This document shows positions 5,115-63,545 of a stretch of DNA of 64,000 bases, piece after piece (the stretch's first letter is position 1; every line of letters begins with the position of its first letter). The DNA comes from Cephalotus follicularis (taxonomy: Eukaryota > Streptophyta > Magnoliopsida > Oxalidales > Cephalotaceae). The notes below the pieces were generated by a model. It ran no database searches. It saw nothing but the letters and a program-made list of their open reading frames with translations, and was not told the DNA's origin. The translations under genes were made by a program, and so were the position numbers. The DNA lies in assembly GCA_001972305.1 (NCBI GenBank), contig BDDD01000551.1, forward strand, positions 384,419 to 448,418. The letters are read 5' to 3'.

Positions 5115-5325
5115 TAAAGCTTCGACGTTTTTCCCTTGAGTGTCGACGCTTATGTCCTCTAAGCGTCGACGTTTAGTCCCATAGTGTCAGCGCTTTCCAG
5201 TCTCTAAACGTCTATGTCGCCTCCCATAGGCGTCGACGTTTAAATGCATTCAGTAAATAAACACACTACACGTTCCAAAGCGTCGACGCTTACCAAAGGC
5301 GTCGACAGTTTTGAGCGTCAGTCGT
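5115..5325. repeat. Palindromic GTCGAC array, LTR B distal cluster
   Basis: About seven copies of AAGCGTCGACGCTT-like words spaced 20-70 bp apart, some decayed (TTCGAC, GTCAGC, CGTCTATG). In LTR orientation this cluster lies downstream of the promoter-like block and of the donor-like site at 5547-5575. Confidence 0.85.
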
Positions 5326-5546
5326 CTTCTTCCTCGCGACATGTCAAACCAGTAACATTTCCAACATAGATACATGCAATCCAACATGTATAAAGCCCAG
5401 AAAACCGACATTCAACATCATATTACACATCCAGTACAACATGGCATAATTTCAGTAACCGAAAACAGTTCAACAGGCCATGCAATCCATGCATAAACAT
5501 CACTGAATAAACACCTATTTATTGAACACAAAATACGATTATGGCT

Positions 5547-5600
5547 CCCCCTACCTCTAGAATCAAGTTAGAAGCCGAAAGTCCTCCTCTTTTAGTATCC
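5547..5600 (-). promoter_or_regulatory. Conserved leader end with splice-donor-like AG|GTAGGG (LTR B)
   Basis: The minus strand reads CTTCTAACTTGATTCTAGAG followed by GTAGGGGGAGCC. Nearly the same words sit at the matching place in LTRs F (18400-18426) and C (36076-36106). This suggests the 3' end of a 5'-UTR exon. The splicing role is inferred. Confidence 0.45.
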
Positions 5601-5805
5601 AGATGGTAACTTTGAGCTCCCAGGTACTGCTTGAAAGCTCCCTGGTTCGTCCCAATAGTTGCTGTCCAAGCTCCAACTTCCACTTGCTCAACAATGGTGT
5701 TTTGAGCTTTCTCTCTCTAAACTTCTACCCTCTTTCCCTCACTGCGTTTCTCTCAAGCCTCTAGTTCTTTCTCAATCAGTAACAGCCGAAGGTAAGAGGT
5801 GAGGG

Positions 5806-5820
5806 CTGTCTTTTATGCAG
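5806..5820 (-). promoter_or_regulatory. TATA-like box of LTR B
   Basis: The minus strand reads CTGCATAAAAGACAG. Position and context match CATAAAA words in LTRs C (35856-35863) and F (18164-18172), all between two GTCGAC clusters and upstream of the AG|GTAGGG site. Confidence 0.45.
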
Positions 5821-6094
5821 GTTTCATTTTTGTTTCACCTGCATAGAACCCACCAGTCCCAGTCTTTCTCTCACTTATGCACACCTAATGCATAGGTGCT
5901 GCATTCTTCTCCTTCACAGGCCATGCATTCAGAGATTCTCTCTCTGTTCAAAGCCCTTTGGTTGCAGGTAATGTGGGCATCATAAGCATGCATGCCACGT
6001 TTCTAGAGAGCCTGCCCCTGTGTCGGTTAAGTGGCTCAAAAGCACCTCCACGCGACACGTTCACCAGCTGCTAGTGTGTATGCAGGAGGCGACC

Positions 6095-6252
6095 CAAAGC
6101 GTCGACGCTTTTATTTAAGCTTCAGCGCTTAAGTGTTTTGTGCGAAATGGCATCGACATTTATGCATTGCGTCGACGGTTTGGCCACTTGAGACACATGC
6201 GCATTCAAGTCAACAAGGAGTCGATGCTTCGGTTTAAGGCGTCGACGCTTTT
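6095..6252. repeat. Palindromic GTCGAC array, LTR B proximal (U3) cluster
   Basis: Includes AAAGCGTCGACGCTTTT near 6096-6112, CATCGACATT, GCGTCGACGG, GAGTCGATGC and GGCGTCGACGCTTTT at the end. In LTR orientation it lies between the LTR start and the TATA-like box. Confidence 0.85.
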
Positions 6253-6440
6253 GCCCCTTCCTTCAATATTTTCAAGTAAAGCAAAAGCTTAACATTTCTT
6301 GGTGTTTCTTATCCCACAACCAACATTACATAAAGATAGAAAACGTCATCAAAGTCGGGAAATCAGTCATTTTATTAACTTCACAATAACAGTACAAATA
6401 CATCGTGAAATTAAAATACATGAAAATCCCGGGCATTACA

Positions 6441-8636
6441 TGGGGAGACCTGCTCCTCTGCCGAAAGCCAACTGCCATAGACTTCACATACCAGACCAGA
6501 CGCGCATGTGCAAGCCCCGTGGTGTCAGACCATCAGACCAGCACATACCAGAATAGGCTTGCTATAGTACGTTCATGCCAGACCAAGGAGTCTGAGAAGT
6601 CACACAAGGCGATATATATATTGGACTGCTCAACGTAACACTACTCGGCAAGGGTGCTCGGACTGCTCAGCACAACATTACAAGCAATGCACATCTGATC
6701 TGCCCAGGAGCTCGACAGTACAAGGTACGCACCTCTGTAAAACATAGCTCGGCAAGCTCGGCATGTTAGCTCTCAAGCATCATCCACAACATTAGGATGT
6801 AGAACACCACAACTATTCCACCACCTGCTCGCAGAGAACCCAAGCACATGAGACTACTGTGAAATATTAGACCGTCCACGGAATATCAGACCAACATGCG
6901 TAATACCCAACCAACTGCGAAATACCAGACCAGCAGTGGATTACCAGACCAGAGGTGGAATACCAGACCATCCATGGAATATTAGACTAGAGGTGGAATA
7001 CAAGACCACTAATACTACACAAGCAAGATCAATGATGCGTACTGCCCGACAAGCCAACACTTGCATGAAAAGGGTGCCAGTACTTCCTCTAACAGTCCCT
7101 CAAAACCAGACTGGAGAAATTAGCTTATCTACCACTGTCCCCCGGACACCAAGGCATATCAAGAACTGCCGTCCACTACCAGCACGTTGTCTACACCAGC
7201 GGATCTCTAACTACTCCAAGATGTGGTAGACAGAAGGACAAGGAAGCTCGCCTACCACTGTCCCAAGAACACAAGAGGAGGAGAAACCATAACAGCCGTA
7301 CCGCCAGACTAGGAGGTCCGAGAAGGTCACTCGTTATAATCCCCAAGAGCCATCCTCAACAAAACGCCCGAGAAGCTACTTCACTCAAGCAATGCCTGAA
7401 GAGGCTTAACTCAACAAGACATCTGAGGAGCTCCACTCATCAACACCCGAGAAGCTTTACTCAACACCCGAGAAGCTACTTCACTCAGCAAATGCCCGAG
7501 GAGACACTACACTCAGCAATGCCCGAGGAGACACTACACTCAGCAATGCTCAAGAAGGTACTCGGCACGCACTGCTCGACAAAGGCTGCCCAACATGGAC
7601 TACTCGTCAAGCAATGCCTAACATGCACTGCTCGGCAAGGGATGCCCGACATGGACTGCTCGACAAGGAATGCACATGGCACTGACTCCTTGGCCAGGAG
7701 TCATATCAAGAACACACATCTAACTATAGCAATAACATCCATGTTCATCACATGAAATTTGGGAAACCTCGTCAACCCAGAATCTGGAACGCCATAACAT
7801 AGGCTCAACAACAACTCAACATAAAATGGTTAAGTCAGCAAAAACAATAAAACTAAATCACAGTAACACGTCACATACCTGGGTCTCTCAAGACCAGTTC
7901 CTGCGACGCTTACCAGTTTCCTTGGAACTTCGAATCCCTCACTGGATTCCTCACATTCCAGAAACTCAACCAGCCCACTTGGAGCTTCGAATCTGACACT
8001 GGATCCACATTTCACAATCCGAGAAACCAATCATACCAGGACTACCATCTCACTACTCACTGTACTGAGGAACACCAATTCTACAATACCACACCCGGAG
8101 TAGGGACATCGAAAGACCAGTGAGAATCACCTTCAACCACGGTTGATTACAGTACAAATGGAGAAGAAGAGAAATAGAGACTTGCAAAGGAGATTCTTCG
8201 GCCAGGCCAGAAGTAAGAATCCAACGAAAGAGGAGGCTTGAATCTCACAGGGAGCACTTACGACTCGCCAGAAGAGGAGTTCAATTGGCACCCTCTCTTC
8301 CTTCCCTTCTCCTTCTTCCTCTTTTCTTCTTCCTCTTTCCCACCCACACCCTGACACTGGGCTCCTGCCACTCCCTTCTGCCAACAACCAGTAAAAACAT
8401 CATCCCCCTTTCTCTACTAACACACGCCTGCTCACAAGAGGAGGCGTTAGCTTCCTTTAGAAGCCTCTCTCTTATGGGTTAAGCAAAAAATGATTTCCCT
8501 CCTAATCCACTTTGGGCCTTCACTGGTATAAGAGATAACTCCCAATTGGCCCAAGGAAATTTGACATAACACAATCCAGGCCCTTAACAAGCACATAACA
8601 CTGTGGATTTCCTCAAAACCGTACACGGGTATCACA
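6441..8636 (-). repeat. Element J 3' LTR (left copy, truncated)
   Basis: Collinear with about 12090-14203. Shared blocks include GCAAGCCCCGTGGTGT, tandem GGAATACCAGACCAG-type words (6870-7010), CCCGAGAAGCTACTTCACTC-type words (7380-7560) and CACTGCTCGGCAAGG-type words (7560-7690). The minus-strand start TGTGATACCCGTGTACGG is at 8636. The end furthest from that start was replaced by LTR B. No gene is seen. Confidence 0.78.
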
Positions 8637-12105: not shown

Positions 12106-15100
12106 CACGTAATCCAGGGAAACCACTCTCAGACTTCACATGCTAGACAAGCTGAGCATGCGCAAGCCCCGTGGTGTAAGACCATCATACCAGCACATAC
12201 CCGAATAGGCTTGCTAGAGCACTCTCATGCCAGACCAAGGAGTCTGAGAAGGCATGCACACCTGATCTGCCCAGCAGCTTGACATTACAAGGTACGCACC
12301 TCTGTAAAACATAGCTCGGCATGTCAGCTCTCAAGCATCATCCACAATAGCAGGATGTAGAACACCACAACTATTCCACCACCTGCTCGCAGAGAAACCA
12401 TGCACACCAGACCACTGTGGAATATCAGACCATCCATGGAATATCAGACAAACCTCCGGAATACCCAACCAACTGCGGAATACCAGACCAGCGGTGGATT
12501 ACCATACAAGAGGTGGAATACCAAGCCATCCATGAAATATCAGACCAGAGGTGGAATACCAGACCACAAACACTACACAAGTAAGATCAATGCTGTGTAC
12601 TGCCCGATCGGCCAACACTTGCATAAAAGGGGTGCCAGTACGTAAATGTACCCGTGACTTTCCTCTAAAAGTCCCTCAAAACTAGACTGGAGAAATTAAC
12701 TTTTCTACCACTGTCCCCTAGACACCAAGGGATATAAAGAACTACCATGCACAACCAGCACATTGCGTACACTAGCGGATCTCTAACCACTCCAAGATAT
12801 TCTAGACAGGAGGACAAGGAAGCTCGCCTACCATTGTCCCAAGAACACAAGAGGAGGAGAAACCATAACAGCCGTACCGCTAGACAAGGAGGTCCGAGAA
12901 GGTGACTCGTCATAATGCTCTAGAAGGTTCACGCCCGAGAAGGCATCTTCAACAAAACACCCTAGAAGCTACTTCAATCAGCCAATGCCCGAGAAAGCTT
13001 AATCAACAACACATCCGAGGAGCTCCACTCAGTAACACCCGAGAAGCTTTACTCAACACCCGAGAAGCTACTTCACTCAGCAATGCCCGAGGAGACACTA
13101 CGCTCAGCAATGCTCAAGAAGGTGCTCGGCCTGTACTGCTCTGCGAAGGCTGCCAAACATGTACTGCTCGGCAAGGAATGCCTAACATGCACTACTCGGC
13201 AAGAGATGCCCGACATGGATTGCTCGACAAGGAATTCACATCACACTAACTCCTTGGACAGGACGCATATCATACTATCTCCCTGGCAAGAACACACATC
13301 TTACCATAGCAATAACATCTATGTTCGTCACATGAAATTTGGGGAACCTTGTCAACCCAGAATCTCGAACGCTATAACACAGGCTCACAAACAACTCAAC
13401 ACAAAATCGTTAAGTCAGTAAAAACAATAAAACTAAATCACAGTAACACATAACATACCTGGGTCTGTCAAGACCAGTTCCTGCAATGCTTACTTGTTTC
13501 CTTGGAACTCCGAATCCCTCACTGGATTCCTCACATTCCAGAAACTCAACCATCCCACCTGGAACTTTGAATCTGTCACTGGATCCATATTTCACAATCC
13601 CAAAAACCAATCATACCAGGACTACCATCTCAATACTCACTGTACTGAGGAACACCAATTCTACCATACCACACCCGGAGTAGGGACATCAAAAGACCAG
13701 TGAAAATCACCTTCAACCATGGTTGATTATAGTACAAATGGAGAAGAAGAGAAATAGAGACTTGAAAAGGAGATGCTTCGGCCATGCCAGAAGTAAGAAT
13801 CCAACGAAAGAGGAAGCTTGAATCTCACAGGGAGTAGTTACGACTCGCCAGAACAGGAGTTCAATCGGCACCCTCTCTTCCATCCCTTCTCCTTCTTCCT
13901 CTTTCCCACACATAGCCCCACGCTGGGCTCCTGCCACTCCCTTCTGCCAACAACCAGTAAAAACATCACCCCCCCTTTCTCTACTGACACATGCCTGCTC
14001 ACCTTGGGAGGCATTAGCTTCCTTTGGAAGCCTCTCTGTTATTGGCTAACAAAAAAATGATTTCCCTCCTAATCCACATTGGGCCTTCACTCACATAAGA
14101 GATAACTCCCAATTGGCCCAAGGAAATATGACATAACACAATCCAGGCCCTTAACAAGCACATAACACTGTGGATTTCCTCAAAACCATACACGGGTATC
14201 ACATAACCATTTTGCAAATAACAACCTTAAAATTAAACATTTGAGAATAGCTTCAGAAGGAAACCTCCAAACTTCTTTTGTCAATCTGAAATTGTAGGTA
14301 TTATCCTTTGTCCTCGCTGGGCTAAGTAGGAATTATGCATCAAAACGAATATATAAATGTAATCTATAAACCATGATAAGTGGCTACAAATAATCAGACA
14401 TCAAGAATTCCACAAAGGGTACAATCAATCAGTCCAGTTGTCCGAAGACCAGTAGTGGGTGCCATCTATCGCTACCTCCTAGCTCCAACAATGCACCACC
14501 TAACTACTACCATACACTCCGATGATGATAGAAAAGGTAAATAATATTGTTGGCACTTGGTGGGCCATTAACAGTCATGGTCTGCATTACAGATAAGTTT
14601 GGTGTATAAGCTCTAGCCAACTCCTGGCACCTAGGCTCACCTCTGCAGTCCGTGATACACTCCGATCACAAGACCATCAGAAACTATCAAACACAGTCAA
14701 TACAGTATACAATACAGTAGTATTACATATGTAATGTAATATAGTAGTAGTTTCCTTTTGAAGAAAACGGTAAACCTGTTTGATAGAATCTCATTTGAGA
14801 AAACAGTACAGTTCAGTAATTCTCACTTGGAGAAAATAGTAAACAATTCAGTAATTCCCACTTGGAGAAAATAGTTCAGTAACAGTAGGATTTCGTTTGA
14901 AACAATAGTTGAAACCCTTTAATTGTGCATATAGCACTCAGTAGTTAAAATCCTCGAAACAGTAGTATTCATAAAATACTTTGATAGATATAACTATCTA
15001 TAACAGCAACAATATGTAATTGCATAACAATACATCATTAACAATTCAACAATCAGTACAGTACAATCAACATCAATTTATGTGAATCAAACAGTAACAA

Positions 15101-16092: not shown

Positions 16093-16228
16093 TCTCAGTC
16101 GACTGCTTCCTCGAACAGTCGACTGTTTCCTTCATGAGTCAACCAGTCGACTGTTTTCTCTAACTGTTGAGTGTCTCCTTTGCGAGTCGCCCAGTCAACT
16201 GTTTCTCTTGAACAGTCGGCTAGTTCCT
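16093..16228. repeat. GTCGAC array, LTR K proximal cluster
   Basis: CAGTCGACTG recurs at 16097, 16116 and 16144 with decayed copies (AACTGTTGAG, CAGTCAACTG, CAGTCGGCTA), spaced about 19-30 bp. Confidence 0.85.
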
Positions 16229-16373: not shown

Positions 16374-17401
16374 TGTTGACTTTTAGTCTCAATCCTAAGT
16401 TTTAATGATTACAAATTTGCATTTAACTTTGCTGCTTTCTGTGCAAGAAAAGAAATAAGCAAAACAAAGAAGAAAAGAAATAAGCAAAAAAAAGAAGTAC
16501 AGAAATAGTGCAAAGCGTCGACTCTTTGATCAAAGCGTCTGCTCTTTGTGCAAAGCGTCTACCGTTTGTTGCAGAGAACAAAATGGAAATTACAAGACTG
16601 ACTAAGCGTCGACTCTTAAGGCTAAGCGTCGACACTTTAAGTCTGGCAGTCGACTCCAACATGTTGACGCCTGCGCTTTGAGCTGAGAATTCAAATTGAG
16701 ATCCCCAACGGTCACATGACCGTCGACGCTTAAGGCTACTCCGTCGACGCTTTGGACTGCTGGAACAATATCAGAACTTGTTTTAAAGAGCCATTCTTTA
16801 TGCAAACAACTTCCAACACTTCTACAACGGCTCTATTTCTTCACCAACGGCTATAATGTGAAGAATACTATAAATACAAGCCAAGAAACAAGACTCAAGT
16901 GTCTCGAACACAAGATTTGAACATCCAATCCCAAAATCTCAACTTGCACATCTACAAACAAAAGAGAAAGACAACAAGCTAGAGTTTTACACTTTCATAT
17001 CCAAAGCTTGTAACTAAGCTACAAATTTCATACCCAACCTTCAAGAGGTTATTGTAAACACAAAACCAATCTTTCTATCATTGTATTTGAGGGGAGTGAA
17101 CCCTTGTAAGGTGTTTATTGATTTGCACCCGGAACCCAAAATCAATTGTAAGGTGGTTTGTTTGATTTGCACCCGTAAGCCGAAAATCAGAGGTTGCTAG
17201 GGAATTCTAGTGGAAACTCAAGGGGCTCTTGAGAAAGTGGACGTCGGCACGGTTTTGCCGAACCACTATAAATTTGTTTTCACTCTCTCTAACTCTCTCT
17301 CTTTATTACTTGTGATTATTTGATTGTGTGTTGTGTGCTTGTTTAGTTTCATTGCTTATTTTGTATTTTCCGCATACAAAGTTATTAGTTAAAGGTTGCC
17401 A
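16374..17401 (+). mobile_element. SIRE-like Ty1/copia solo LTR (1028 bp) with perfect 5-bp TSD
   Basis: Starts TGTTGACTTTTAGTC and ends AAAGGTTGCCA. The flanking 5-bp duplication is TACAT (16369-16373 and 17402-17406). It contains a GTCGAC array (about 16510-16755), TCCGTCGACGC words, and the GTGGACGTCGGC ... GCCGAACCAC module shared with LTR N. There is no internal region, so it arose by LTR-LTR recombination. It sits in LTR K. Confidence 0.82.
16510..16755. repeat. GTCGAC array of the solo copia LTR (AAAGCGTCGACTCTTT type)
   Basis: About eight copies: CAAAGCGTCGACTCTTTG, CAAAGCGTCTGCTCTTTG, CAAAGCGTCTACCGTTTG, AAGCGTCGACTCTTAAG, AAGCGTCGACACTTTAAG, GCAGTCGACTCC, ACCGTCGACGCTTAAG and TCCGTCGACGCTTTGG. 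Confidence 0.85.
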
Positions 17402-17762: not shown

Positions 17763-17905
17763 TGTAATGCCCAAAATTTCCATTAATGTATTGTTATAAT
17801 TCCCAGTGTGAATTATCATGAATAAATGATAATCATGAATTTTTCATCTTGAATGAAAACTATTAAGCGATATTGTGATGAATTGAATCATGGAGAAGTG
17901 CGCTC

Positions 17906-18008
17906 AAGGCGTCGACTCTCAGAGAAAGCAGTTGACTGGACAAGAAACCAGTCAACTAGGCAATGTGTAAGCAAACAGCCGACTGTCCAGAAGAACAGTC
18001 GACTGGAT
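17906..18008. repeat. GTCGAC array, LTR F proximal cluster
   Basis: GGCGTCGACTCTC, CAGTTGACTGG, CAGTCAACTAG, CAGCCGACTGTCC and CAGTCGACTGG within about 100 bp, upstream of the TATA-like box. The copy in the 3' LTR is at 54638-54738. Confidence 0.85.
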
Positions 18009-18163
18009 GATGCTCTGTTAGAACAACATGTGAAGTGATCACATGCAACAACTGAGGGGAAGGAAGTGGACGCCACGACCAAAGGAAAGAAAGAAAATGC
18101 CACATGTACTGCATTTAGGCACTATGCAAGCGGGTGAGGAGAGAGGGAGAGAAAATATCACCT

Positions 18164-18173
18164 ACATAAAATT
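18164..18173 (+). promoter_or_regulatory. TATA-like box of LTR F
   Basis: ACATAAAATT, followed by a CT-rich start region (TCCTTCTTCATCTCTTCC) and then a purine-rich leader (18190-18285). The 3' LTR copy is GCATAAAACT at 54971-54980. Confidence 0.45.
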
Positions 18174-18399
18174 TCCTTCTTCATCTCTTCCGACCAGAAA
18201 CAGAGAAAGGAAAGAAAAAGAGAAATTAGAGAGAAATACGTTGAGAAACCAGAAAAAAAGGAAGAGAAAGAGAGAGAAGTCTAATTATCCATAGTTGGAC
18301 AAGCTTGGAAGCTTAGAGTTGGACTGGATTGGAGGTATTGGACTGGACCTGGGGAGCTCAAAAGCTGCTGGTCGGTAAAGCTTAAAGAGCTGGACTTCG

Positions 18400-18428
18400 A
18401 TTCCTAACTTGGAATCTAAGGTAGGGAC
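18400..18428 (+). promoter_or_regulatory. Conserved leader end and splice-donor-like site of LTR F
   Basis: TTCCTAACTTGGAATCTAAG is followed by GTAGGGAC. The same words occur in LTRs B and C. In the 3' LTR copy, solo LTR G inserted in this very site. Confidence 0.45.
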
Positions 18429-18605
18429 TTTATAATTGTAATTTGAGTTCAATTATAGTAATGGTATATTTGGTGAAATGCATGAGTGATGGTTGTGTTC
18501 TGTAGCCAATACAATGACCATTGATGATATTATGTTACATGATTATGGTTGAATAGCTTGCGATAATCTGTTTAGATGAAATAGAATGGTTTGCATACTA
18601 CTATC

Positions 18606-18692
18606 CCGCAGAATAGCCGGCTGTTGAAGAAAAACAGACGATTGTTCAAGGTAGTCAGCCGAATGATAAAGGAAAACAGTCGACTGTGCATG
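18606..18692. repeat. GTCGAC array, LTR F distal cluster, first part
   Basis: AGCCGGCTGTTG, CAGACGATTG, CAGCCGAATG and CAGTCGACTGTGCATGCG, spaced about 24 bp with AAGGAAAA-like spacers. The cluster is split by element E and resumes at 30308-30435. Confidence 0.8.
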
Positions 18693-20079: not shown

Positions 20080-20215
20080 ACGCTTAACTATAGGCGTCGA
20101 CGGTTCCATTGCATAAAACGACAAAGCGCTGAGCAAAGCGTCGACTAAACACAGCACAAAATAGTACAAAGCATCGACGCTCAAAATACAAGCGTCGACG
20201 GTTTGCGTCGAGCAC
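20080..20215. repeat. GTCGAC array, LTR E distal cluster (AAGCGTCGACGGTT type)
   Basis: AAAGCGGTGACGCTTAA, AGGCGTCGACGGTT, AAAGCGCTGAGCAAAGCG, GCGTCGACTAA, AAAGCATCGACGCTC, AAGCGTCGACGGTTTGCG. Duplicate in the 5' LTR at 29122-29262. Confidence 0.85.
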
Positions 20216-20954
20216 AGAATACCAGTTGCAGAAAACAGTTTTAAATCCATGGCCAAGTCTAATTTTTCTTAAACACAAAGCATAAATACCAACATGCAGG
20301 TTCTTAAGATGTTATTTATAAGTTCAAAACGCCAGATATACGTATGATTACATACAACGTGCAAAACACATTTTGAAATACAATTTTCTGGTATAATAAC
20401 AATTTTTCCCAAAATCAAGAATTACAATCTAATTTTTCTGTGCATTATTCATAAAATTGTGATATGCAGATGATTTATAACATGATTTTCCTGTTTCATT
20501 ATCAGTATAATGAAATATGCTTGTGAATCATTCAAATTAAAACAGCAGAATTCCATTTCAAACATGCCTCTAAAATCATGCTCAAAAGTAAATTATAACA
20601 GTTTCTAATACTAAACGATGATTGATATCAAAACTATGTAGTTAAAACTACAAATTTCGTTCAGAAAATACCTTCAAAAGACGTCAAAAGATAAAGATCG
20701 AGGCTGACGAAGTTGCTGCTCTGGTGTGTTTTAGAACAAAATGTGCAGATGATTTTTGAAGAACAAAGCATGAAATCAGATTTTAAAAAGCCAGAAAACG
20801 TGTAATATAATGATAAAATTGTATAACTTAAGAGTTTCCCTTTCATGCAGATTCGATTTCGAACAATGAAGAAAAATCGGATCAACAAAAATGGCAAAAA
20901 CCCCTTTTTCCTTAAATAGCCCACCGTCCAAACTGGTATGGAAAAAGATGACTA

Positions 20955-21095: not shown

Positions 21096-21218
21096 AGAAA
21101 ACAAAATAAAAGAAATTTCAAAATAAAAATAAAAGAGTTCACACACCATAGCATATATCAAAAGGTATAGACCCAACATAAAACGATAAACATGTAAACA
21201 TAGAAACGGGATATTACA

Positions 21219-47195: not shown

Positions 47196-47200
47196 TTTCT

Positions 47201-49797: not shown

Positions 49798-49801
49798 ACA
49801 G

Positions 49802-51889: not shown

Positions 51890-52010
51890 AGTGTCGACGC
51901 CTTCTGCCCTTTTCTTTTTACCCGTCGACGTTTCGCATTGAAATTCTGGGACGTCTAAAACACTTAAGCGTCGACGCATGGTTGCTTAGCGTTGACGCTT
52001 AGTGCCATGC
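51890..52010. repeat. GTCGAC array of LTR H
   Basis: GTGTCGACGCCTT, CCGTCGACGTTTC, AAGCGTCGACGCATGG and AGCGTTGACGCTTAG. Confidence 0.8.
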
Positions 52011-52253: not shown

Positions 52254-52475
52254 GAGACCCCACTTCATGGGAGGACCAACGGGACCCCATAAGTGCGGGA
52301 GGACCGACATCAATTACAATGGGACCTCGCAAGTGTGAGAGGACCAATATAAACTACAATGGGACCCCGCAAGTGGGGGAGGACCGACGTCAATTGCAAT
52401 GGGATCCCGCAAGTGTGGGAGGACCGACATGAATTACGATGGGACCCCACAATTGCGGGTGGACCGATATATCTT
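52254..52475. repeat. 40-bp minisatellite in LTR H
   Basis: About 5.5 copies of a unit reading GGGACCCCGCAAGTG, GGGGAGGACCGACAT and CAATTACAAT in order. The period is 40 bp, with point differences between copies. Confidence 0.92.
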
Positions 52476-53303: not shown

Positions 53304-54435
53304 CTAATTGTTTGACTTGCCAGAAAGTCAAGGCCGAAAGACAAAGGCCGACGGTACTGTTACAGCCATTACCAGTTGTGGAATGGAAATGGGAACATGT
53401 GACCATGGATTTTGTTTCCGGTTTTCCTTAGACTCAAAATATTCACAATGCAGTCGATGATAGACTAACAAAATCAATGCACTTTCTTCCTACACATGTC
53501 ACTGATTCAGCGAGAAAGTTGGCTCAGTTATATATAAAGGAGATTGTGAGACTGCATGGTGTTCTGGTGAGCGTTGTATGTGATAGGAACTCGATCTTTA
53601 CTTCTAACTTTTGGAAGAGATTCCAGACAGCCATTGGGACAAAGCTGAACCTCAGCACAACTTTTCACCCACAGACAAATGGACAATTAGAGAGTACTAT
53701 CCAAACCTTGGAAGATACGCTCTGGGCTTGTGTGATTAATTTTGCTGGTACTTGAGAAGATAATATTCCCTTGATAGAGTTTTCGTACAACAATAGCTAT
53801 CATTCGAGCATTGGCATGGCTCCGTACGAAGCTCTTTATGGAAGGAAGTGTAGATCACGCATCTGATGGGATGAGGTTGGCGAATGACCATTGCTTCGAT
53901 CGGATTTGGTTGTGGAGACTTCAGAGAAAGTCAAGGTTATAGGGGAGAGATTGCTTACAGCTCAAAGTTGGCAGAAAAGCTATGCCGAAAGTGTAAAAAT
54001 GAGACCTTTCACCTTCGGTGTTGGAGATCATGTATTTTTGAAGGTATCTCATTGGGAGGGTGTTTCAAGGTTTGCGAAAAAGGGCAACCTAGCTCCGTGC
54101 TATATTTGTCTTTTTCAGATTCTGGAGAGAGTTGGGGAGGTAGCTTATCAGCTCGCTTTGCCTCCTGCATTGTGAATATACATGACGTCTTCCATGTTTC
54201 TATGTTGAGGAGTTACATCCGAGATCCATCACATGTCTTGGATTATGACTCGATACTGGTGCAAGATGATCTTTCTTTCCAGGAGTCACCGGTTAGGGTC
54301 CTTGATTGGAAGACGCAAGTATTGAGGAATCAAACCATCCCTATGGTGAAGGTTCAATGGCAGTTCCACCAACCTGATGAAGCTACGTGGGAACGTGAGA
54401 ATGATATCCGTGAATGCCACCCTCACTTATTCTAG
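53304..54435 (+). pseudogene. Element F integrase core, C-terminus and chromodomain
   Basis: Continues integrase after H: LTCQKVKAERQRP, MDFVSGFP (catalytic Asp) then a TAG, a short deletion before DRLTKSMHFLPTHV, CDRNSIFTSNFWKRF (Asp kept), STIQTLEDT preceded by Glu, [18 protein letters not shown], stops in the WDEVGE region, then GDHVFLKVSHWEG and a frameshift near 54175. The end is a chromodomain-like VKVQWQFHQPDEATWEREND, with a stop at 54433-54435. Highly similar to C. Confidence 0.9.
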
Positions 54436-54477: not shown

Positions 54478-55232
54478 TTTTAATGCCTAGAATTTCCATT
54501 AATGCATTGTTATAATTCCCAATGTAAATTATCATGAATAAATGAGAATCATGAATTTTTCATCTTGAAATGTTAAATCTTGAGTGAAAAGTATTAAGGG
54601 ATATTGCGATGAATTGAATTATGGAGAAGTGCGCTCAAGGTGTCAACTCTCAAACGAAGCAGTTGACTGGACAAGAAACCAGTCGACTGGGCAATGCGAA
54701 AGCCAATGGCCAAATATCCAGAAGAACAGTCGATTGGATTACGCTCTGTCAGAACAACATGTGAAGTGATGACATGAAGCAATAGAGGGGAAGGAAATGG
54801 ACGCCACCTGAGCATCATACGGCCAAAAGAAAGAAAGAAAATGCCACATGTACTTCATTCAGGCCGAATGGAAGTATAAAATAACCACATGGCGCATGCA
54901 AACTGATGGAGAAGGAAGAAAATGGCACCAAGGCGCCATGAAAACGGGTGAGGGAGAGAAAATATCACTTGCATAAAACTCCATTCTTCATCTCTTCGGC
55001 CCATAACTAGAGTAAGAAAAGAAACAGAGAAATTAGTGAGAAAAACGTTGAGAAACCGGAAAGAAGGGGAGAGAAAGAGAGAGAAGTCTCATTATCCATA
55101 GTTGGACAAGCTTGGAAGCTTGGAGTTGGACTGGATTGGAGCTGTTGGACCGGACATGGGGAGCTCAAAAGCTACTGGTCGGTAAAGCTTAAAGAGGTGG
55201 ACTTCTATTCCTAACTTAGAATCTAAGGTAGG
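54478..55232 (+). repeat. Element F 3' LTR, first part
   Basis: Matches 17763-18425 with extra sequence near 54790-54930. GTCGAC cluster at 54638-54738 (CAGTTGACTGG, CAGTCGACTGGGC, CAGTCGATTGG). TATA-like GCATAAAACT at 54971. Ends within ATCTAAG|GTAGG at the target site of G. Confidence 0.87.
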
Positions 55233-55328
55233 TGTGACACCCCGTGTCACATTTTTGAGGTTGCCGTATAAAGGACGAGACAGTATTCTATTATTATTAT
55301 TATTTAAAAAAGAGAGAGAAAACGGCAG

Positions 55329-55355
55329 AAGGCGCTAGAGGCCAACTAGCGCCTT
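55329..55355. repeat. Hairpin AAGGCGCTAG/CTAGCGCCTT in G
   Basis: Perfect 10-bp arms with a 7-nt loop (AGGCCAA) near the start of G, at a place where other LTRs carry GTCGAC palindromes. A partial GAGCGCCC word follows at about 55395. Confidence 0.8.
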
Positions 55356-57562
55356 AAATAAAAAAAAAAAAGAGAAGGCAGGACAGGGGCATTGAGCGCC
55401 CGTGTAAAGAAAGAGAACAGAGAGAGTGTTAGAGACAGAGAAAGATGGCGGGAGAGACAAGGAGAGAGAGAGATGCCGGGAGCAAAAAGGGATCGGAACA
55501 ACCGGGAAGAGCGGCTCATGTCCTCCTACACTGACGGTAACCCTTCCTCTCCTTCTCTTTTCTTTTTCTCCTGGCGCTTTGCCCCTGCCATTCGCTGTCG
55601 CCCGTTTCCACCTCCGATTCTGGCATGGGTGGAGGGTTGGTTCTTCTCTAGAGGATCAGCTCTTACCGTTTTGATGATAGTCTTGGCGTTTACCGATCAA
55701 AATCGGCTGGAATTTAGCCATTGCGTCAACTCAACGTTTTGACTCGCTGCCGCCTGTGACGCCACGTTTGGTGCCGAGTCACGGTGAGTCACGGCCACCA
55801 GTGCGTTTATCGGGGTGTTGGCGTCCATATATGTCGCCACCGGTCAATGACGCGTTGACCGAGTCGCACTGAGTCCGAACTCAGTGAGTTGTCGCCACTG
55901 TCTACCATTCCATGGCGTTCTGGGGAACTTCTAGGCGGGTCTCCTCCAGGAATGAGTAGACCTCTGCTTTTGGAGTCCGTTGGTGTGGTTGTTAGTGTTT
56001 TGGCAGGATGGCCAGAATCTGGTTGGAGTTCCGGTGACGCGTAGTGTTTGCTGTGTGTGTGTAGGATGTAACGAGAGTGTGATATGTGTTATTTATACAA
56101 GGTGAAAGTTATGACTTTTTGATCGATGATGGTGGAGCTTTCAATCCATAACAGGGAATCCGATAGCCGATCTAGATTTCAACGTCTTGTGAGGTGAATT
56201 TCATTTCCTATAGTAATTTCGTTATTTACATCTAGTATATTGATTTGTTTGATTGGTAAATAGTAATGATGGAGCATTGAAATGAATGAAGATTTGGTAA
56301 TAATTAAAAGTTCAATAAGGAAGAGGATGTGTAAGTATGTGAGAAAGAAGGTGGGATATTTCTAGAGTTTAATAATGTAAATATGGTTAATGAATTTAAA
56401 GATAATAGAGATTGCAACTGGGTGTTAATAGATTGCGGTAAATACATTGGGGGTGGAAACAATGATATGAAATTATATAAATTCCTGCATGTGCATACAA
56501 ATGGCATACTAATGTGAATAAATGTATTCGTGAGGATGTATAAGAGGTGTAATGCTTTTATCCGTGGAAAGGTAATATTGTGATAATGTGAGTGATGGAA
56601 TGATTTGTAAGTCGTAAGTGTTATGATTGAGAGAAATAAATTTGGGTAATGTAACATGCGGATTCATGTGACACTTTATGCATATGTATATGCATTTCAT
56701 GTGTATAAATATAGATAATGTGGTTAATGAATTAGTAATGTGATGGCATTGTAGACTCGGATCCTGTAGCTGATCCAGAGCATAGAGGGGCTAGTTCGCA
56801 GGGGTTATGTCATTGATACTGTGAGTGGGACATTCCCTTCCTTATTATTTGAGATTATTGTTTATTGCATGTGCCCTGTTGTCTGTTTTATATTATGATT
56901 CAGTCAGGATTTGTATACCCATGTGTCTTTGGTTAAACATATTTCTTGAATTGAATAGAGTCATTGATTGCTTGAGCGGGATTTGAATTCCCACATGTCT
57001 TAAGTTGAGCATGTTTATCGATTCTTATGAGTCAGATTCTTGGTGACTAGATCACCCTCTTGTGTTACGTATCATTGTGTTTGTGATATTGTGATCGCTG
57101 TCTGTTTTATATCATGACTCAGTTGAGATTTGTATCTCGTATGTTTTATGTTGAGCATGTGATGTCATTGAGACACAGTTCTGAGAATACGAGTGCTCTA
57201 GCTCTGGGTGCCTGGGTCACCTTCCAATTTACGTATCATTGTGAGTTGTGATATCGTATTTGTGCTCTGATGCTGGTACCAGTGATATGTCAGATCAGCT
57301 ATTGGCCCAGGGTGAGGTGTACATTCGAGGCTCAACTCTCCTCAGCAAGCCCATTTATCTATGATGGGGTGTTATGGGGGGTCTACCCCTGAGTTCCATA
57401 CGTCGATCTGCAGTATACTATTGTCTATGATGGTATGCTGAGTCTAAGTGCAGCAGAGCTGCTCTGTCGCCTACCCTTTGGACCCAGTTTCAGCTATTGT
57501 GCACCAGTGATGGTGTACCAGATTTTATGCACTGGATATTGTGCACCAGATTCAGATGTTTT

Positions 57563-57722
57563 GTATAGTAGACCCTCGGGCGAGGGTATGGGGTGAGTGT
57601 AGTACTGTATAGTAGGGCCCCGGGCGAGGGTAGGGGGTGAGTGCAGTATAGTAGACCCCCGGGTAAGGGTAGGGGGTGAGTGCGGCATAGTAAGCCCTCG
57701 GGCGAGGGTTGAGGGGGTACTA
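57563..57722. repeat. GC-rich minisatellite in G (GTAGACCCCCGGGCGAGGGT type)
   Basis: About four copies of a 35-50 bp unit: TAGACCCTCGGGCGAGGGTA, then GGGGTGAGTG and CAGTATAGTA. Confidence 0.85.
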
Positions 57723-57844
57723 CGTTGAGGATGACGGATTTGCCATTAGATATGGTCAGATGGGAATTGACGGATATATGGAATCGACGGATATATTGGG
57801 AATTGACGGATATATGTTAATGACAGCTTAGCTGTACCAGCATC

Positions 57845-58225
57845 CAGTATCCCAGATAGCACAGTTGTGCCAGTATCCCAGATAGCGTAGTTGTGTTTGT
57901 ATTCCATATAGCACAGTTGTGCCAGTATTCCAGATAGCACAGTTGTGCCAGTATTCCAGATAGCATGTTTGTGTCAGTATTCCAGATAGCACAATTGTGT
58001 CAACATTTAGATATCACAGTTGCTTTTATATTTTTCAGATAGTACAGTTGTGTCAGCATTCAAATATCACAATTGTGTTTATATTTCAGATAGTACAGTT
58101 GTGTCAGCATTCAGATATCGCAGTTCTGTTTATATTCCAGATAGTACAGTTGTGTTTGCATCCTAGATAGCACAGTTATGGCAGCATTCCAGATAGCATA
58201 GTTGTGTCAGTATCTTAGACAGTAT
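57845..58225. repeat. Minisatellite in G (CAGATAGCACAGTTGTG type)
   Basis: A dozen or more degenerate copies of a 26-30 bp unit, AGATAGCACAGTTGTGCC plus AGTATTCC, with GTTTATATTCC variants. Confidence 0.88.
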
Positions 58226-59084
58226 CGATGAGCCAGTATTCTACATATTATATCATATGGGCACATTTCTTGTTTTCTGATTTCAGATCATATTCGTAAT
58301 TCTTGATATTGATTTGCACTCTATTCTTATTGTGATTCTATTGTACTTGTGTAGTACCAGTTTAAGTTTTAGATTTGTTCAGTACCTTTCATTGTTGAGT
58401 TACTTTTATTGAAGTCTTGTTGATTAGTTCTGCCTTAATTATTGCTTTCTATATTCTTGATCATTGCTATATTATTTTCTTTCAGTAGATCCGATTCTTC
58501 ATGGATGTAACAGGGAATGACTTGTCCCAACTCACTTAGTCCTTTGGACTAACCCCCTCACCGTTTTTCTTTTCAGATGTCGGTGAGCAGTTGTTAGGTC
58601 AGACTCAATTGTGGATGGACCACAAAGGCAGGGCATGCTACCAGAATATCAACACAGGCATAGCTTCACTACATCAGCACTTTAATTATGCATTATATAT
58701 ATTTTTAAAATATATGTTTTTCCTTATGGTTTTGTTTTAAAAGGGCAGAGCCCAATATAATTATTATTTATGCTTGCTGGTATGGTTGAGGCAGAGCCCA
58801 ACTCATGCATGTTTATTAGTTTAAACTGTTGATTCCTCCTTCGGGAGTGTGTTTTATAAAATGTGTTTTTCTTTACATGGGGCATAGTCCGATAAACGGA
58901 TACTACATGCCCGATTTTCATAAAATTTTAAGACTTAGAAAAATTTTCAAGTTTTTGTAAAACGTTCAACTTTATGATGGTTTTAAGAAATTTTCAAACA
59001 GGTTTTAAGATATCACATGGAGGTTTCCGAAAGAACGCTTGTCACGTGATTGTCACATCTGTCTCGGTTGGGATAGGTGTGATA

Positions 59085-59819
59085 GTAGGGACTTTATAAT
59101 TGTAATTTGAGTTCAATTATAGTAATGGTTCATTTGGGGAAAGTCATGAATGATGGTTGTATTCTGTGGACCATATGATGACCATTGATGATATTCTGTT
59201 ACATGAATATGGTTGAATAGCTTACGATAATCTGTTCAGATAAAATAGAATGATTTGAATACTACTATCCCGCACAACATCCGACTATTGAAGGCAAACA
59301 GCCGATTGTTCAAGGTAGATAGCCGACTGTTAAAGGAAAACAGTCGATTGTGCATGTGTTATTTTCCCCAGATATTACAGGAAGATATTACTGGGAAAAT
59401 CGTATGTATACTATTTCGCAAAGACAGTCGACTGTTGAAGGAAAATATCCAATTGTGCATGTGTTGCTCTGCCCAGAACAGTTGACTACTGAAGGAAAGC
59501 AGCCGACTGCTCAAGGAAACAACCAACTGTTAGAGGAAACAACCGACTGTTGACGGAAATAATTGACCCTTAGAAAATGTGGTGGACATAGGTACGACGC
59601 CAGGAACCTAGTTGCATTGAGCATATATTTGCATTGCATATCGCTATGAACTGGATTGTCAATTGAAATCTATATGTTTTCTAAAGTGTTTTAACATTGA
59701 AAATAATTGTACTTAGGGTTATTACAACTGATGTTTTGCACGAAATATTGTATTTTGCTAGATTGAAATGAGGTTTCAAAAGACGGATACATATTTTGAA
59801 TAAATATGTTTGGCAAGTA
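59085..59819 (+). repeat. Element F 3' LTR, second part
   Basis: Resumes F after G (GTAGGGACTTTATAATTG). Matches 18421-18726 joined to 30273-30705, spanning the E insertion point uninterrupted (GAAGATATTACTGGGAAAA, about 59381-59399). It carries the distal GTCGAC cluster at 59278-59560, and is cut at GGCAAGTA by element N. Confidence 0.9.
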
Positions 59820-61106
59820 TGAAATAAACACTCTTGAAATATACAAGAGGGGGGGTGAATTGAATATTTAAGTAAAATCAGGAATTTAAAAACTTTCAAA
59901 GTAAATAGTGAACGGAAAGAAAAACTTCTCCGAATTTAGAGTGGTTCGGCTAACTCTTGCCTACGTCCACTTTTCCCAAGGGAGCTCCTTGAGTTTCCAC
60001 TATCTCGAATTGATTAAGGCAGCAATTCGTTACACCTTACAGCTTTGTGATTGACCTCAATCACAAGACCTTGACCTCAAGACCTTAGAGGATTCTCCTC
60101 TTTTACAAGTAAAATGTGAAAGTGTTTACAAGATAACCTCTCAAATAGGTTGATATGAATAATACAGCTCTCAATTTGAAACACTCAGAAAATCTCAAAG
60201 GATAAAGCTTAGAAGCTTGTTAGAACACTATTGAGAACTTTGAGCTTTTTGCACACTAGAATGCTTGACTTTGATATCTCTCTTGATGTTGGGTGATTGA
60301 TGTGAATAATTCTAAATTATTGTTCTTATTCTGAGGTTTCAGTCTTCCTTTTATAGGCATAAAAGATTTGTAGCCGTTGCATAAATCATGGAAGCTTTTG
60401 ATTTATAAATGTGTAGTTGCAATCTTTGATTTTTGTCTCCTGCTGACATAAAGAAGTCGATGTCTTTTGGAAAGGCGTCGATGTCTTTTCTGTTATTAGC
60501 CGTTGAAAGTGCGCCAACTAGCCATTCCATGTTTCCCGAGTCAGACCATTTAAAAAGACGTCGATGTCTTTTTAAAGGTGTCGATGTCATTTCTGGGAAA
60601 TCTCCAGGTATTGAAACTTTGAGCATCACATTGACTTCTTCTGTAGGGGTCGATGTATTTTCTGGGAAATGCAGGTAGCTCTAGAAAGGCGTCGATGTCT
60701 ATGGAAAGGCGTCGATGTCTTTTGTACTGACGTCGATGTCTTTGCATGTAGGGATCGATGTCTTCAATTGCAAATTTGAACAGTAGCTTCTGGCACAAAA
60801 GACGTTGATGTCATCTTGAAAGGAGTCGATGTCTTTCTGTACGGACGTCGATGTCATTACTGGAAGGACGATGTCTTCATTATAATTTGATCTTGTAACT
60901 TCTGACACTAAAGACGTCGATGTCTTTTTGGAAGGGATCGATGTCTTTCTGTACGGACGTCGATGTCATTTCTTGAGAGTCGATATCTTTTTCTGCAGAT
61001 GGTATTTTGCCTTGGTATTGAACTTGTAATTTCTTGCACATCCAGTAAACTTGTTAAATGCAAATATGTTATCATCAAAACAAGGATTGGGACTAAATCA
61101 TCAACA
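59820..61106 (-). repeat. Element N 3' LTR (1287 bp)
   Basis: The minus strand starts TGTTGATGATTTAGTCCC, then CTTGTTTTGATGATAACA, and ends in a CACCCCCCCTCTTGTATATT stretch and TTTATTTCA. Contains the GTGGTTCGGC/CCTACGTCCAC module (59940-59975 on the plus strand) and a long GTCGAT array. Similar in size and plan to solo LTRs M and 16374-17401. Confidence 0.85.
60448..60972. repeat. GTCGAT array in LTR N (GACGTCGATGTC type)
   Basis: About 18 copies, spaced mostly 15-45 bp: GAAGTCGATGTC, GGCGTCGATGTC, GACGTCGATGTC, GGTGTCGATGTC, GGGTCGATGTA, GACGTTGATGTC, GAGTCGATGTC, GGATCGATGTC. This is the densest array in the window. Confidence 0.9.
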
Positions 61107-61122
61107 ATCTCCCCCTTTTTTA
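61107..61122 (-). other. Element N polypurine tract
   Basis: The minus strand reads AAAAAAGGGGGAGAT directly before TGTTGATG. Two similar tracts lie at about 61363-61378 (AAAAAAGGGGGAGAA) and 61408-61420 (AAGGGGGAGC), as often seen in the 3' part of SIRE-like elements. Confidence 0.85.
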
Positions 61123-61647
61123 TGATGACAAAAATTTGCTCAAAAGGCATAAACTAAAGTAATACCAATTTAAAAACATAAGTAAATACCAATAGAGATA
61201 AATTATAATGTAAGCAATGGCAATGTTCATGCAATATCAAATAAGCAATGAGTTATGCTGTTGAGAGCTCTTTTCTAAGAAGCATAGCATTTTGAGTCTT
61301 AATCTCCCATATTGAGCCTTTTCTCCAAAATTCATAAACTCAAGCATTTTGAGCCTATTCTCCCCCTTTTTTGTATAGCATCAAAAAGTTCTACAAAAGG
61401 AAGAAATCATTAGCTCCCCCTTAATGACAGCAAGGGTAAAAAGAATATGAACATAGGCATTATGCACAAAATATCATAATATCGGTAATGAGCATAAGTT
61501 ATTGGCAATAATTGAGAAACACAATCATTAAGCAAAAACACGTTCATGAAACACAATTCATAAACATATATCATAAAACTGTATAAACATCATCTCATAA
61601 ACACAATTTCATAAACACATAAACATTTCATTAATATCATAAATTCA

Positions 61648-63052
61648 TTAACAAACTTTGTTCTTACAAAGGATAAGTAAACACTTAGTTTCATTACAAC
61701 ACAAAAAAAAAAAACAACAAAAACATGATAAAAACAGCAGCAACAAGCAATCAAGAGGCAGCAGACGGGGCATCGAGTCGGATTTATCGCCCGAAGTCTC
61801 TTCGCAACCATCAATAGTCTTGGAATCGGCAAGTTTTCGTTCCATTCTTTTGAGACGCCTCCTTACGACTTTTAGATCGTAGTAGATAGTGTCATCGATG
61901 TTATCAAAATCGGAACGAATCGTTACATGATCTCTCTCCAAGCTAGTGATCCGCGTGTTGACTTGCTCAAATTTCTCTTCAAGCGAGGCTTGCATAGAAT
62001 CAAAACGAGAGCGTATATACTCCATTATCCTGTCAAAATCAGTAGAGGATGAGGTTCCTTGAGCTTGAGCCTGAGCAGGTGCAGATTCTTCATGTGCTTC
62101 CCAAGGAGGGTTCTCTTCTTGCTCTTCTCTTGCCATCCTTGGCCCTTGATCAACTTTGGGGCAATAGGTCCATATCCCTTCTTGCTTTTTCCACCCCATT
62201 CTATTCATGGTGATCTTGTTGTAAGTGTCATCTTTCTTCAATTTTGTTGCAATTTCACCTTCTAGCCGAAATTGGTGATGGAGAAAGACTTTGGTAAGGA
62301 TAGAGCCGAAAGGTAGAACTGATTTCTTTTGAGAGAATGCTCTAACCATAGTCTTGAGCAAGAGGAGAGGAAAACAAAATTCAATTTTAGAAAGGATGCA
62401 CCACATGAGAAAAACTTGCATCCGAGACAACTTTGCATACCCTCCACCGGTGGGTAGAATTTGATGTACAATGAGATGGTGGAGTAGCCTATGGTCAACT
62501 GATAATCTATTGGTGGTCAGTGCCATATTGGGATGAACATTTGGATCATTTGGGTACAAAAGAGACAAAATTTGGTTAGGGTGAAAACCCTCAACCTCCG
62601 GCCATTTCTTGTGTTCAAAAACATATAAACCGGTATGTGGAATGTGTAAAATAGAGGCTAGAATCCTGGCATCTAGATAAATTCTCTGCCCTTTGACAGA
62701 TGAGGAGAGTGCAAATTCCTCATTTGGGTTTGAAACCATTCGAAGGTTTGAGTAAAATTCCTTGACCAATTTTATGTAAAAAGGGTCAGAAATTTGTACA
62801 AGAGGGAGAAGATGGAGATCATCTAAAAGAAAACTCGGAAGAACAGAAATCCAAGTCGATATTTCTGCCTCCCATAACTCTTTTGTCAACAAACACAACA
62901 TTCCTAAGAGGAACTTGCTCTTCGGATTCGGAATCCGATAGAGAAGGGTCGGGGGAAGACTCTCTAAGTTCAAGTCTCTGCTTTTTAGCATATTTCTTAG
63001 GTTGAGAGGAAGAAGCAGCCTTCTTTTTGGCAGGTTGTTTTGTCCTAGGCAT
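61648..63052 (-). pseudogene. Element N 'putative plant transposon protein' (Transposase_32-like) ORF, one frameshift
   Basis: Starts at ATG 63052-63050 with a basic, Ser/Glu-rich head (MPRTKQPAKKKAASSSQPKK, later SDSESEEQ). At about 62820-62870 one frame (RNIDLDFCSSEFSF then stop) hands over to the long frame. The core has FYIKLVKEFYSNLR, VKGQRIYLDARILASILHIP and LIVHQILPTGGGYAKLSRMQ, typical of the plant Transposase_32 family, which despite its name occurs in retroelements and has no shown activity. Then comes a predicted coiled coil (FDRIMEYIRSRFDSMQASLE ... VVRRRLKRMERKL) and a hydrophobic tail (LDCLLLLFLSCFCCFFFLCC) partly coded by an A-run, possibly read-through of a lost stop. Confidence 0.78.
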
Positions 63053-63254
63053 TTTATCAAGCAGTTGGTGAGTACAAGAGACAAACACAAAGAGTGATAA
63101 AAACAGACGGATTGGACAAGACGAAAACTGTTTTTGATGTTGGAGAACTAAAAAGAAGATGGTTTTCGACAAAATAGAACGATTTTTGAAATAAAAATAA
63201 AAGAGTAGAAATTTTCTAAAAGACACAGAATAGGGTAAAAGTGGGTAATGAGCA

Positions 63255-63545
63255 TGAGATCGACGTTTTTATGAAGAAGTCGATTTCTGAGTGAAAGACG
63301 TCGACGTGATTCAAAAGAAGTCGACGCGTTCTTTAAATGAACGGAAGAAATCGATACAGAAAACGCTGTGTTTTGAAAAGCATCGACGTGTTTAAGAAGT
63401 CGACGTGTTTCAGGGAAACACAAAGAGGTCGATGTTTTCCAAAAGAGATCGACGTGATTTTCATAAGTCATAAAGTTTTGCAGAAAAGAAGTCGACGTGA
63501 TTTTGTAAAGCATAGAATTTCTTGAAAAGAAGTCGACGTTTTTGT
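63255..63545. repeat. GTCGAC array inside element N body (AAGTCGACGTG type)
   Basis: About ten copies, including GAGATCGACGTTTT, AGACGTCGACGTG, GAAGTCGACGCG, GAAATCGATAC, GCATCGACGTG, GAAGTCGACGTG, GAGGTCGATGTT, GAGATCGACGTG and GAAGTCGACGTT. It lies between the gag end and the Transposase_32-like ORF, outside any LTR. Confidence 0.88.

Follow-up and report, generated by a model that had tools for sequence, protein, structure and literature searches.

Clusters of short palindromes, termed repeated motifs (RMs), are known from Sireviruses, where they precede the TATA box within a CpG-rich stretch, a further cluster being located ahead of the ENV gene (Bousios et al., 2010; PMC2829016). The portions of that study compared here describe the RM as specific to Sireviruses, lacking in classic Ty1/copia elements and, except in Tnd-1, built on a CGG-CCG core; the comparison covered Ty1/copia elements only. 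A TCGA centre is present in two of the 13 published RMs, those of Vitis (CGGTCGACCG, which contains GTCGAC) and Tnd-1 (ACAATCGATTGT). In maize, the palindromes of Sirevirus long terminal repeats (LTRs) are reported as small-RNA targets (Bousios et al., 2016, as cited in PMC5311732 and PMC10760457), and the parts of the citing papers considered here report palindromes with the core CACCGGAC...GTCCGGTG for structured regions of Copia and Helitron elements. The present analysis concerns arrays of GTCGAC-centred words in 64,000 bp of the Cephalotus follicularis genome (contig BDDD01000551.1, designated C551, positions 384419–448418; hereafter the window), where they occur in Ty3 and Sirevirus LTRs alike. 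The chances are judged slightly better than even that these arrays are cis-regulatory modules of LTR promoters, made of dyad sites on one helix face for a predicted cooperative dimeric binder, probably of the host, that would control transcription.

The exact word GTCGAC occurs 67 times in the window, between positions 5142 and 63532, against 6.3 expected from 200 dinucleotide shuffles (standard deviation 2.5, maximum 13), and ranks first among 2,076 strand-collapsed hexamers. Neighbouring copies no more than 60 bp apart form 33 pairs (shuffle mean 0.06, maximum 2). The commonest one-mismatch variants within arrays are GCCGAC (11), ATCGAC (11) and GTCAAC (9), for which the rest of the window predicts 0.95, 2.5 and 2.5, respectively. 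Throughout the host assembly of 1,577,397,061 bp, CAGTCGACTG is found in 197,377 copies and its reversed-letter control in 939, while AAGCGTCGACGCTT has 18,108 copies and its control 15. A genome sample was also taken, comprising 20 and later five further stretches of 10 kb, picked by contig number with their content unseen and without de-duplication. The first 20 stretches contain 65 GTCGAC (15 expected from dinucleotides); CGTCGA ranks first and GTCGAC ninth of their hexamers, and, leaving aside GA and AG repeats, enrichment among 8-mers is strongest for GCGTCGAC, CGTCGACG and CATCGACG. Only four CAGTCGACTG occur there, where genome-wide density predicts about 25, which indicates an uneven spread over the genome. 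The shuffles and reversed-letter controls rule out chance or composition as the source of the excess, and the preliminary description of the locus, which had noted recurrent GTCGAC-core arrays in the LTRs, was right on this point.

The words follow a spacing rule. Of the 76 gaps between neighbouring words in the window, 41 measure 19–22 bp, whereas 20,000 random placements in the same 15 clusters gave a mean of 8.4 and a maximum of 20; the arrays had earlier been called irregularly spaced, which these gaps contradict. Neither this rule nor the published Sirevirus RMs figured in that earlier description. The counts include one LTR per pair, exclude the 3′ LTR of element F (below) and single words outside the listed ranges, and treat gaps of up to 120 bp as one cluster. 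The symmetry, phase and spacer tests used arrays of at least three words with gaps of at most 75 bp. All 25 stretches (250 kb) hold 40 arrays with 244 words, and 114 of their 204 adjacent gaps are of 19–22 bp. The 564 word-pair distances of 24–200 bp in this sample are periodic at 10.35 bp (power 63.9; maximum of 400 position-jitter nulls 16.1). The last five stretches alone give a power of 31.5 at 10.4 bp, against 12.9, and the fitted periods overall span 10.15–10.4 bp. Adjacent gaps of at least 24 bp, the least dependent data, reach a power of 8.2 at 10.6 bp (250 kb, n = 80). When all 64 palindromic hexamers were compared over the 250 kb, more than five pairs together with an excess at 19–22 bp were seen for GTCGAC and the overlapping GACGTC alone (12 versus 3 at neighbouring distances for GTCGAC, 6 versus 3 for GACGTC); ATATAT and TATATA form many pairs at every distance. 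About 10^5 GTCGAC pairs stand at two-turn spacing in the 1.58-Gb genome: 105,145 have a centre distance of 21 bp and 582 of 26 bp, a 181-fold difference in which high-copy families are counted many times. A phase of about 10.35 bp suggests that double-stranded DNA is read from one face, which would point to a protein assembly at symmetric sites.

Regular spacing might also be a product of mutation, if units of about 21 bp were tandemly duplicated by reverse-transcriptase slippage at palindromes or by unequal crossing over, and the words persisted owing to their recent origin. Consistent with this, spacers are more alike within arrays than between them (0.43 versus 0.32; permutation maximum 0.40; 71 spacers), a 112-bp repeat lies inside the Sirevirus array, and the genome-wide reversed-letter control is likewise richer in pairs at 21 than at 26 bp (1,224 and 110). 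Words within an array, however, are 0.83 alike, an overstated value, since the core served to select the words, and the 38 spacers of the genome sample whose flanking words stand 20 or 21 bp apart are all distinct. With a unit of 20.6 bp, the odd half-multiples (31, 51, 72 bp and so on) hold 33.2 pairs per bin, nearly as many as the even multiples (37.8), while the midpoints hold 12.2 (array-bootstrap 95% range of the odd/midpoint ratio, 1.7–4.9), so that duplication of a single 21-bp unit is insufficient on its own. The word is, moreover, common to unrelated LTR families without alignable spacers, and a purely mutational origin is considered unlikely.

All arrays share the core [AG]TCGA[CT], around which three near-symmetric word types are built, AACAGTCGACTGTT (type I), AAAGCGTCGACGCTTT (type II) and AAAGACRTCGAYGTCTTT (type III), in agreement with the three kinds of flanks previously described. 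Within the window, the arrays are carried by five Ty3 chromovirus-type LTRs, of which two (L3 and F) are related, by two Sirevirus LTRs and by one site upstream of a Sirevirus open reading frame (ORF). In the following list, PBS denotes the primer binding site and PPT the polypurine tract.

3056–6440, minus strand: 5′ LTR of Ty3 element B, with type II arrays at 6095–6250 and 5136–5306 (PBS-like signal at 3044; LTR start TGTAATGCCC).
16094–16222, no strand assigned: type I word array outside any assigned LTR (word positions).
16374–17290, plus strand: Sirevirus-like solo or partial LTR, with a mostly type II array at 16512–16750; 3′ end approximate (alignment to the 61-kb Sirevirus LTR).
17763–18726, plus strand: first part of the F 5′ LTR, with mostly type I words at 17910–18003 and 18679 (self-BLAST, PBS-like signal at 49801, words).
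18727–21218, minus strand: 3′ LTR of chromovirus L1, with type II arrays at 20956–21086 and 20093–20201 (LTR pairing, words).
25990–30271, minus strand: L1 5′ LTR, split by an insertion at 27198–28964 (self-BLAST, words).
30272–30703/30886, plus strand: continuation of the F 5′ LTR, presumably extending to 49800, with type I variants at 30313–30434 (self-BLAST, words).
30887–33011, plus strand: L3 5′ LTR, with type I arrays at 31041–31121 (4 words) and 31572–31767 (8 words) (pair with 35306–37483 plus 47193–47614; PBS-like signal at 33014).
35306–37483, plus strand: first part of the L3 3′ LTR, with homologous type I arrays (self-BLAST, words).
37484–40121, plus strand: 5′ LTR of chromovirus L2, with a type I array at 38664–38788 and about 400 bp extra at 39183–39580 (self-BLAST).
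40299–44840, plus strand: L2 gag-pol, with gag, protease, reverse transcriptase, RNaseH, integrase and chromodomain (Pfam; rve and Chromo slightly under the Pfam cut-off).
44895–47195, plus strand: L2 3′ LTR, with a type I array at 46055–46220 of 8 words, gaps 20, 22, 22, 28, 21, 21 and 21 (self-BLAST, words).
51890–51998, no strand assigned: type II array u51, between F pol pieces (words).
54481–59820, plus strand: F 3′ LTR in two parts, 54481–55232 and 59085–59820, with type I words (self-BLAST).
59821–61106, minus strand: Sirevirus 3′ LTR, with a type III array of 13 words at 60453–60986; 3′ end approximate (PPT and AT/TG junction, polyC signal, words, TATA-like box).
61648–63147, minus strand: PF20167 ORF occupying the ENV position of this Sirevirus, a putative ENV (Pfam).
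63256–63539, minus strand: second Sirevirus array, of 10 words, upstream of the PF20167 ORF (word positions).

Type I is thus carried by L2, L3, F and the 16.1-kb array, type II by B, L1, the LTR at 16374 and array u51, and type III by the right-hand Sirevirus (its LTR and the site upstream of its ORF) and, loosely, by the insertion at 27.2–29.0 kb, which has type III-like words of its own at 27931–28013. Words of types II and III have AAA/TTT flanks, which type I words do not. Symmetry beyond the core was measured in 229 words from 43 arrays (the first 200 kb of the genome sample and the window). Counting outward from the dyad, the flank bases at positions 4, 5 and 6 are complementary in 0.65, 0.47 and 0.44 of words, compared with 0.41, 0.30 and 0.34 after global shuffling (maximum at position 4, 0.50 in 2000 shuffles), whereas shuffling flanks within arrays changes little. 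It follows that flanks vary between arrays, mostly symmetrically, and are uniform within one array. The dimeric binding protein proposed earlier gains support from this complementarity and from the helical phasing, although binding as such is a prediction.

Self-BLAST resolves the window as a nest of LTR elements. L1 (18727–30271, minus strand) and L3 (30887–47614) are inserted into F, whose 5′ LTR starts at 17763, and L2 (37484–47195) is inserted into the 3′ LTR of L3. The LTR pair of L1 comprises 18727–21219 and 25990–27197 plus 28965–30271, and its body is 77% identical to L2. L2 is a chromovirus, with a Ty3 pol in which integrase is followed by a chromodomain (the rve and Chromo scores being under the Pfam cut-off). 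B, L1 and L3 are assigned to the chromovirus type by pol homology and are best regarded as probable members. Pieces of reverse transcriptase, protease and gag lie at 251–2571 on the strand of the B LTR, 371–1081 having 69% identity to L2 pol; no chromodomain was seen in B, while F has a chromodomain match at 53875–54432. Among viral contigs, two loci have two CAGTCGACTG words each, and no relatives of the part of L2 pol used as query were found. Of the nine or more array-bearing LTR types counted previously, some are paired LTRs of a single element or, like L3 and F, kin.

The occurrence of one core in arrays of both Ty3 and Ty1 LTRs, noted in the preliminary description, is confirmed by the Ty3 and Sirevirus LTRs listed above. 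With the words masked, BLAST still aligns related LTRs that differ in word type: L1 (type II) with L2 (type I), B (II) with L3 and F (I), and the 16374 LTR (II) with the start of the Sirevirus LTR (III). Word type is therefore decoupled from the LTR backbone in three sets of related LTRs, as far as sequence alignment defines them. Nor does type track superfamily, type II being common to the Ty3 elements B and L1 and the Sirevirus-like 16374 LTR. Ty3 and Sirevirus LTRs gave no BLAST alignment after masking; a lone 38-bp masked match links the L1 LTR to the stretch before the Sirevirus ORF. The aligned blocks of L1–L2, B–L3 and B–F leave the arrays uncovered. Spread of all arrays from one recent insertion or by gene conversion is accordingly unsupported, and the masked spacers, unalignable between unrelated families, likewise lend no support to the horizontal spread of an intact module that had been suggested. 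Among the options offered before, convergence on one host factor fits best, because types cut across superfamilies and masked spacers cannot be aligned; its binder is a predicted one.

One word type common to Ty1 and Ty3 LTRs without alignable spacers would make a host protein the simplest binder. It is possible, at somewhat less than even probability, that a single host protein or small protein family became tied independently to LTRs of the two superfamilies, imposing a grammar of TCGA-centred dyads in units of about 20.6 bp on one face, after which the flanks switched symmetrically and in concert. Related families would thereby adopt other members, or other preferences, of one protein family. 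VANDAL transposons of Arabidopsis are DNA transposons with short motif arrays and a binding protein of their own, VANC. A protein encoded by an element and recognizing the arrays of that element, in the manner of the VANC anti-silencing proteins, would predict the switching of word types between related LTR families. The same type II word is, however, present in Ty1 and Ty3 LTRs, and the L2 ORFs yield only standard gag-pol domains in Pfam, which makes such self-binding very improbable.

Word position was examined in seven LTRs, and in six of them the first word is found about 124–199 bp into the LTR (Sirevirus 124, L1 139, 16374 LTR 147, F 152, L3 161, B 199), the exception being L2 (1167); in B, words are located at about 199–339 and 1139–1298. 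The observed/expected CpG ratio is 1.3–1.9 in five of six arrays measured, compared with 0.65 window-wide, and CpG bases differ between paired LTRs at 7 of 68 positions in words and at 87 of 442 elsewhere (the divergence totals leave out the pair at 6479/12131). TATA-like boxes follow the first cluster in four of the seven LTRs (Sirevirus 102, L1 42, B 286 and 16374 LTR 122 bp beyond it). Nearness to the LTR start and CpG richness of the five arrays suggest a role in transcriptional control. A dimeric protein would occupy the rows of two-fold symmetric sites cooperatively, along one helix face, and its occupancy would activate the LTR promoter or otherwise govern how the element is transcribed; activation, as opposed to silencing, is the predicted outcome.

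Several observations weigh against such a promoter module. The window alone falls short of significance for the phase (pairs of 24–200 bp, power 7.48; 95% null 7.91), its adjacent gaps of at least 24 bp peak at 13.05 bp (n = 26), and those of the last five stretches at 11.4 bp (n = 27). The reversed-letter control is itself 11-fold richer at 21 than at 26 bp, so high-copy families alone can yield part of the genome-wide contrast. Inside the core, at distance 3 from the dyad, the complementarity of the words (0.62) stays below the shuffled value (0.69), owing to the asymmetry of type III words at this position. In B, L1, L2 and L3, many words stand about 690–1320 bp into the LTR, possibly in transcribed DNA, and L2 lacks a first cluster, its array having a CpG ratio of 0.60. 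The TATA-like boxes stand without a chance control, and the patterns matched in L1 and B were adopted after inspection of those LTRs; no such box was found at the corresponding place in L2, L3 and the examined part of F. Non-CpG positions of paired LTRs differ more in words (15 of 172) than elsewhere (346 of 7,557); post-insertion drift, expected of inserted copies, tempers this result. Post-insertion constraint on non-CpG word positions is not seen in the LTR pairs. Finally, no common site of a single binding factor was found for the published Sirevirus motifs (PMC2829016).

The arrays could instead be sites for a silencing or chromatin factor of the host, or determine how nucleosomes are rotationally phased, rather than attract an activator. 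The helical repeat of nucleosomal DNA is close to the periods of 10.15–10.4 bp fitted here, and GC and AT dinucleotides in the spacers show some phase, an ambiguous signal that may stem from unmasked degenerate words. On the other hand, AAA/TTT flanks are missing from the type I words, and an element would presumably gain nothing from keeping a silencing site in many families. This alternative is regarded as improbable.

It is also conceivable that the arrays act as RNA, neighbouring palindromes pairing in LTR transcripts to form hairpins that feed small-RNA silencing, as the small-RNA hotspots at maize Sirevirus palindromes might suggest (PMC5311732 and PMC10760457, in the parts considered). 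Ten folds compared with shuffles gave z values of -4.3 to -6.4 for both type I arrays on both strands, -4.3 for the 16.6-kb array, -4.7 for the antisense Sirevirus LTR and -2.6 for the array before the Sirevirus ORF. The B array (-0.9 sense, -1.7 antisense) and the sense Sirevirus LTR (-1.0), however, fold much like shuffles, and RNA pairing gives no obvious reason for the 10.35-bp phase. One common RNA structure for all arrays is not supported by these folds. The RNA account is considered unlikely; silencing may still result from the arrays.

The right-hand Sirevirus was recognized by the diagnostics of this group, namely multiple PPT copies, an AT/TG attachment site, a polyC signal and a TATA box after the motif cluster (PMC2829016, in part, for RM and TATA). 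Three AGGGGGAG copies precede its 3′ LTR on the minus strand (about 61420, 61365 and 61115), the PPT/LTR junction AGGGGGAG-AT-TGTTGA fits the AT/TG site, and a polyC-rich signal, CACCCCCCCTCT, is located near 59850 at the LTR 3′ end. The LTR of about 1.28 kb carries 13 near-palindromic words at 124–647, 12 of them in its first half, and a TATA-like box at 749, about 100 bp beyond the last word; ATCGAC occurs in all 13 counted words (60453–60986), always in sense orientation, as a fixed one-base break of the perfect dyad. The PF20167 protein encoded at 61648–63144 is up to 91% identical, over about 70% of its length, to Cephalotus follicularis proteins; the best 120 of its 319 matches are all named from this species. 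The Sirevirus runs past the window end; its piece at 63704–64000 is gag-like by eye but has no gag hit in Pfam, and none of the pieces scanned revealed a copia pol. Given the lack of pol between this piece and the PF20167 ORF, and 319 relatives of which those listed are all from Cephalotus, the element may be a high-copy non-autonomous one expanded in this host. The 16374 LTR aligns unmasked with both ends of the 61-kb Sirevirus LTR, and at its start also with words masked; its words lie 147–373 bp from the start, and a TATA-like sequence at 495.

Other repeats were observed in the window. The direct repeats 6479–8636 and 12131–14203 (2.1 kb, 86–88% identical) contain their own tandem words with units of 19, 27 and 28 bp; CCGAGGAG, part of the 27-bp unit, occurs 26 times versus 1.8 in the 200-kb genome sample. 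Both copies are free of GTCGAC, and thus not every repeat family carries the word. CAGTAC is enriched (61 versus 23), and LTR B has many TACTGTACTG-like words at 4200–5000, possibly a second motif family. Tandem arrays without GTCGAC are located at 52277–52467 (40-bp units), 47668–47831 (45-bp) and 57845–58213 (26-bp).

No description of Ty3 palindrome arrays or of helical spacing was found in the searches made of the open-access literature, and of four 10-mers sought there as whole words only CGGTCGACCG was found, only in PMC2829016. As far as this search reaches, four points are new, namely the presence of the arrays in chromoviruses, the sharing of a GTCGAC core as a rule, the type switching and the helical spacing. 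Palindrome arrays of plant LTRs, described in 2010 without a known binder, now allow a testable question, namely which dimeric protein reads helix-phased TCGA palindromes, and whether it activates or silences. If the binder were a host factor, the regulation of two large classes of retrotransposons in a plant would be tied to one protein.

Among known systems, the iterons of plasmids are direct repeats that lie in origins of replication at intervals of about two helical turns and are bound cooperatively; the arrays resemble them in geometry only, with no kinship in sequence or host. VANDAL arrays are similar in that short motifs within a mobile element vary between families, but they belong to a DNA transposon with its own binder. 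The palindromes of maize Sireviruses likewise form clusters in the LTR cis-region, with a different core, CACCGGAC...GTCCGGTG (PMC5311732 and PMC10760457, in the parts considered). The closest likeness is to Sirevirus RMs: many short palindromes in the upper LTR, upstream of TATA and CpG-rich, with a second cluster before ENV (portions compared of PMC2829016). The right-hand Sirevirus fits this published scheme except in its core, having 13 near-palindromic words against the published minimum of eight, most of them in the upper half of the LTR, and, as further copies, the ten words before the PF20167 ORF, a putative ENV. No array in the window has the CGG-CCG core, GTCGAC taking its place, and a spacing or helical rule is seen here and in none of the portions compared. 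Unlike RMs, the arrays also occupy Ty3 LTRs; those of B, L1, L2, L3 and F would, judging from their sequence organization, work like RMs, and are kept outside the class because no Sirevirus carries them. Since the published comparison, in the portions considered, was confined to Ty1/copia (PMC2829016), the Ty3 arrays extend it rather than contradict it.

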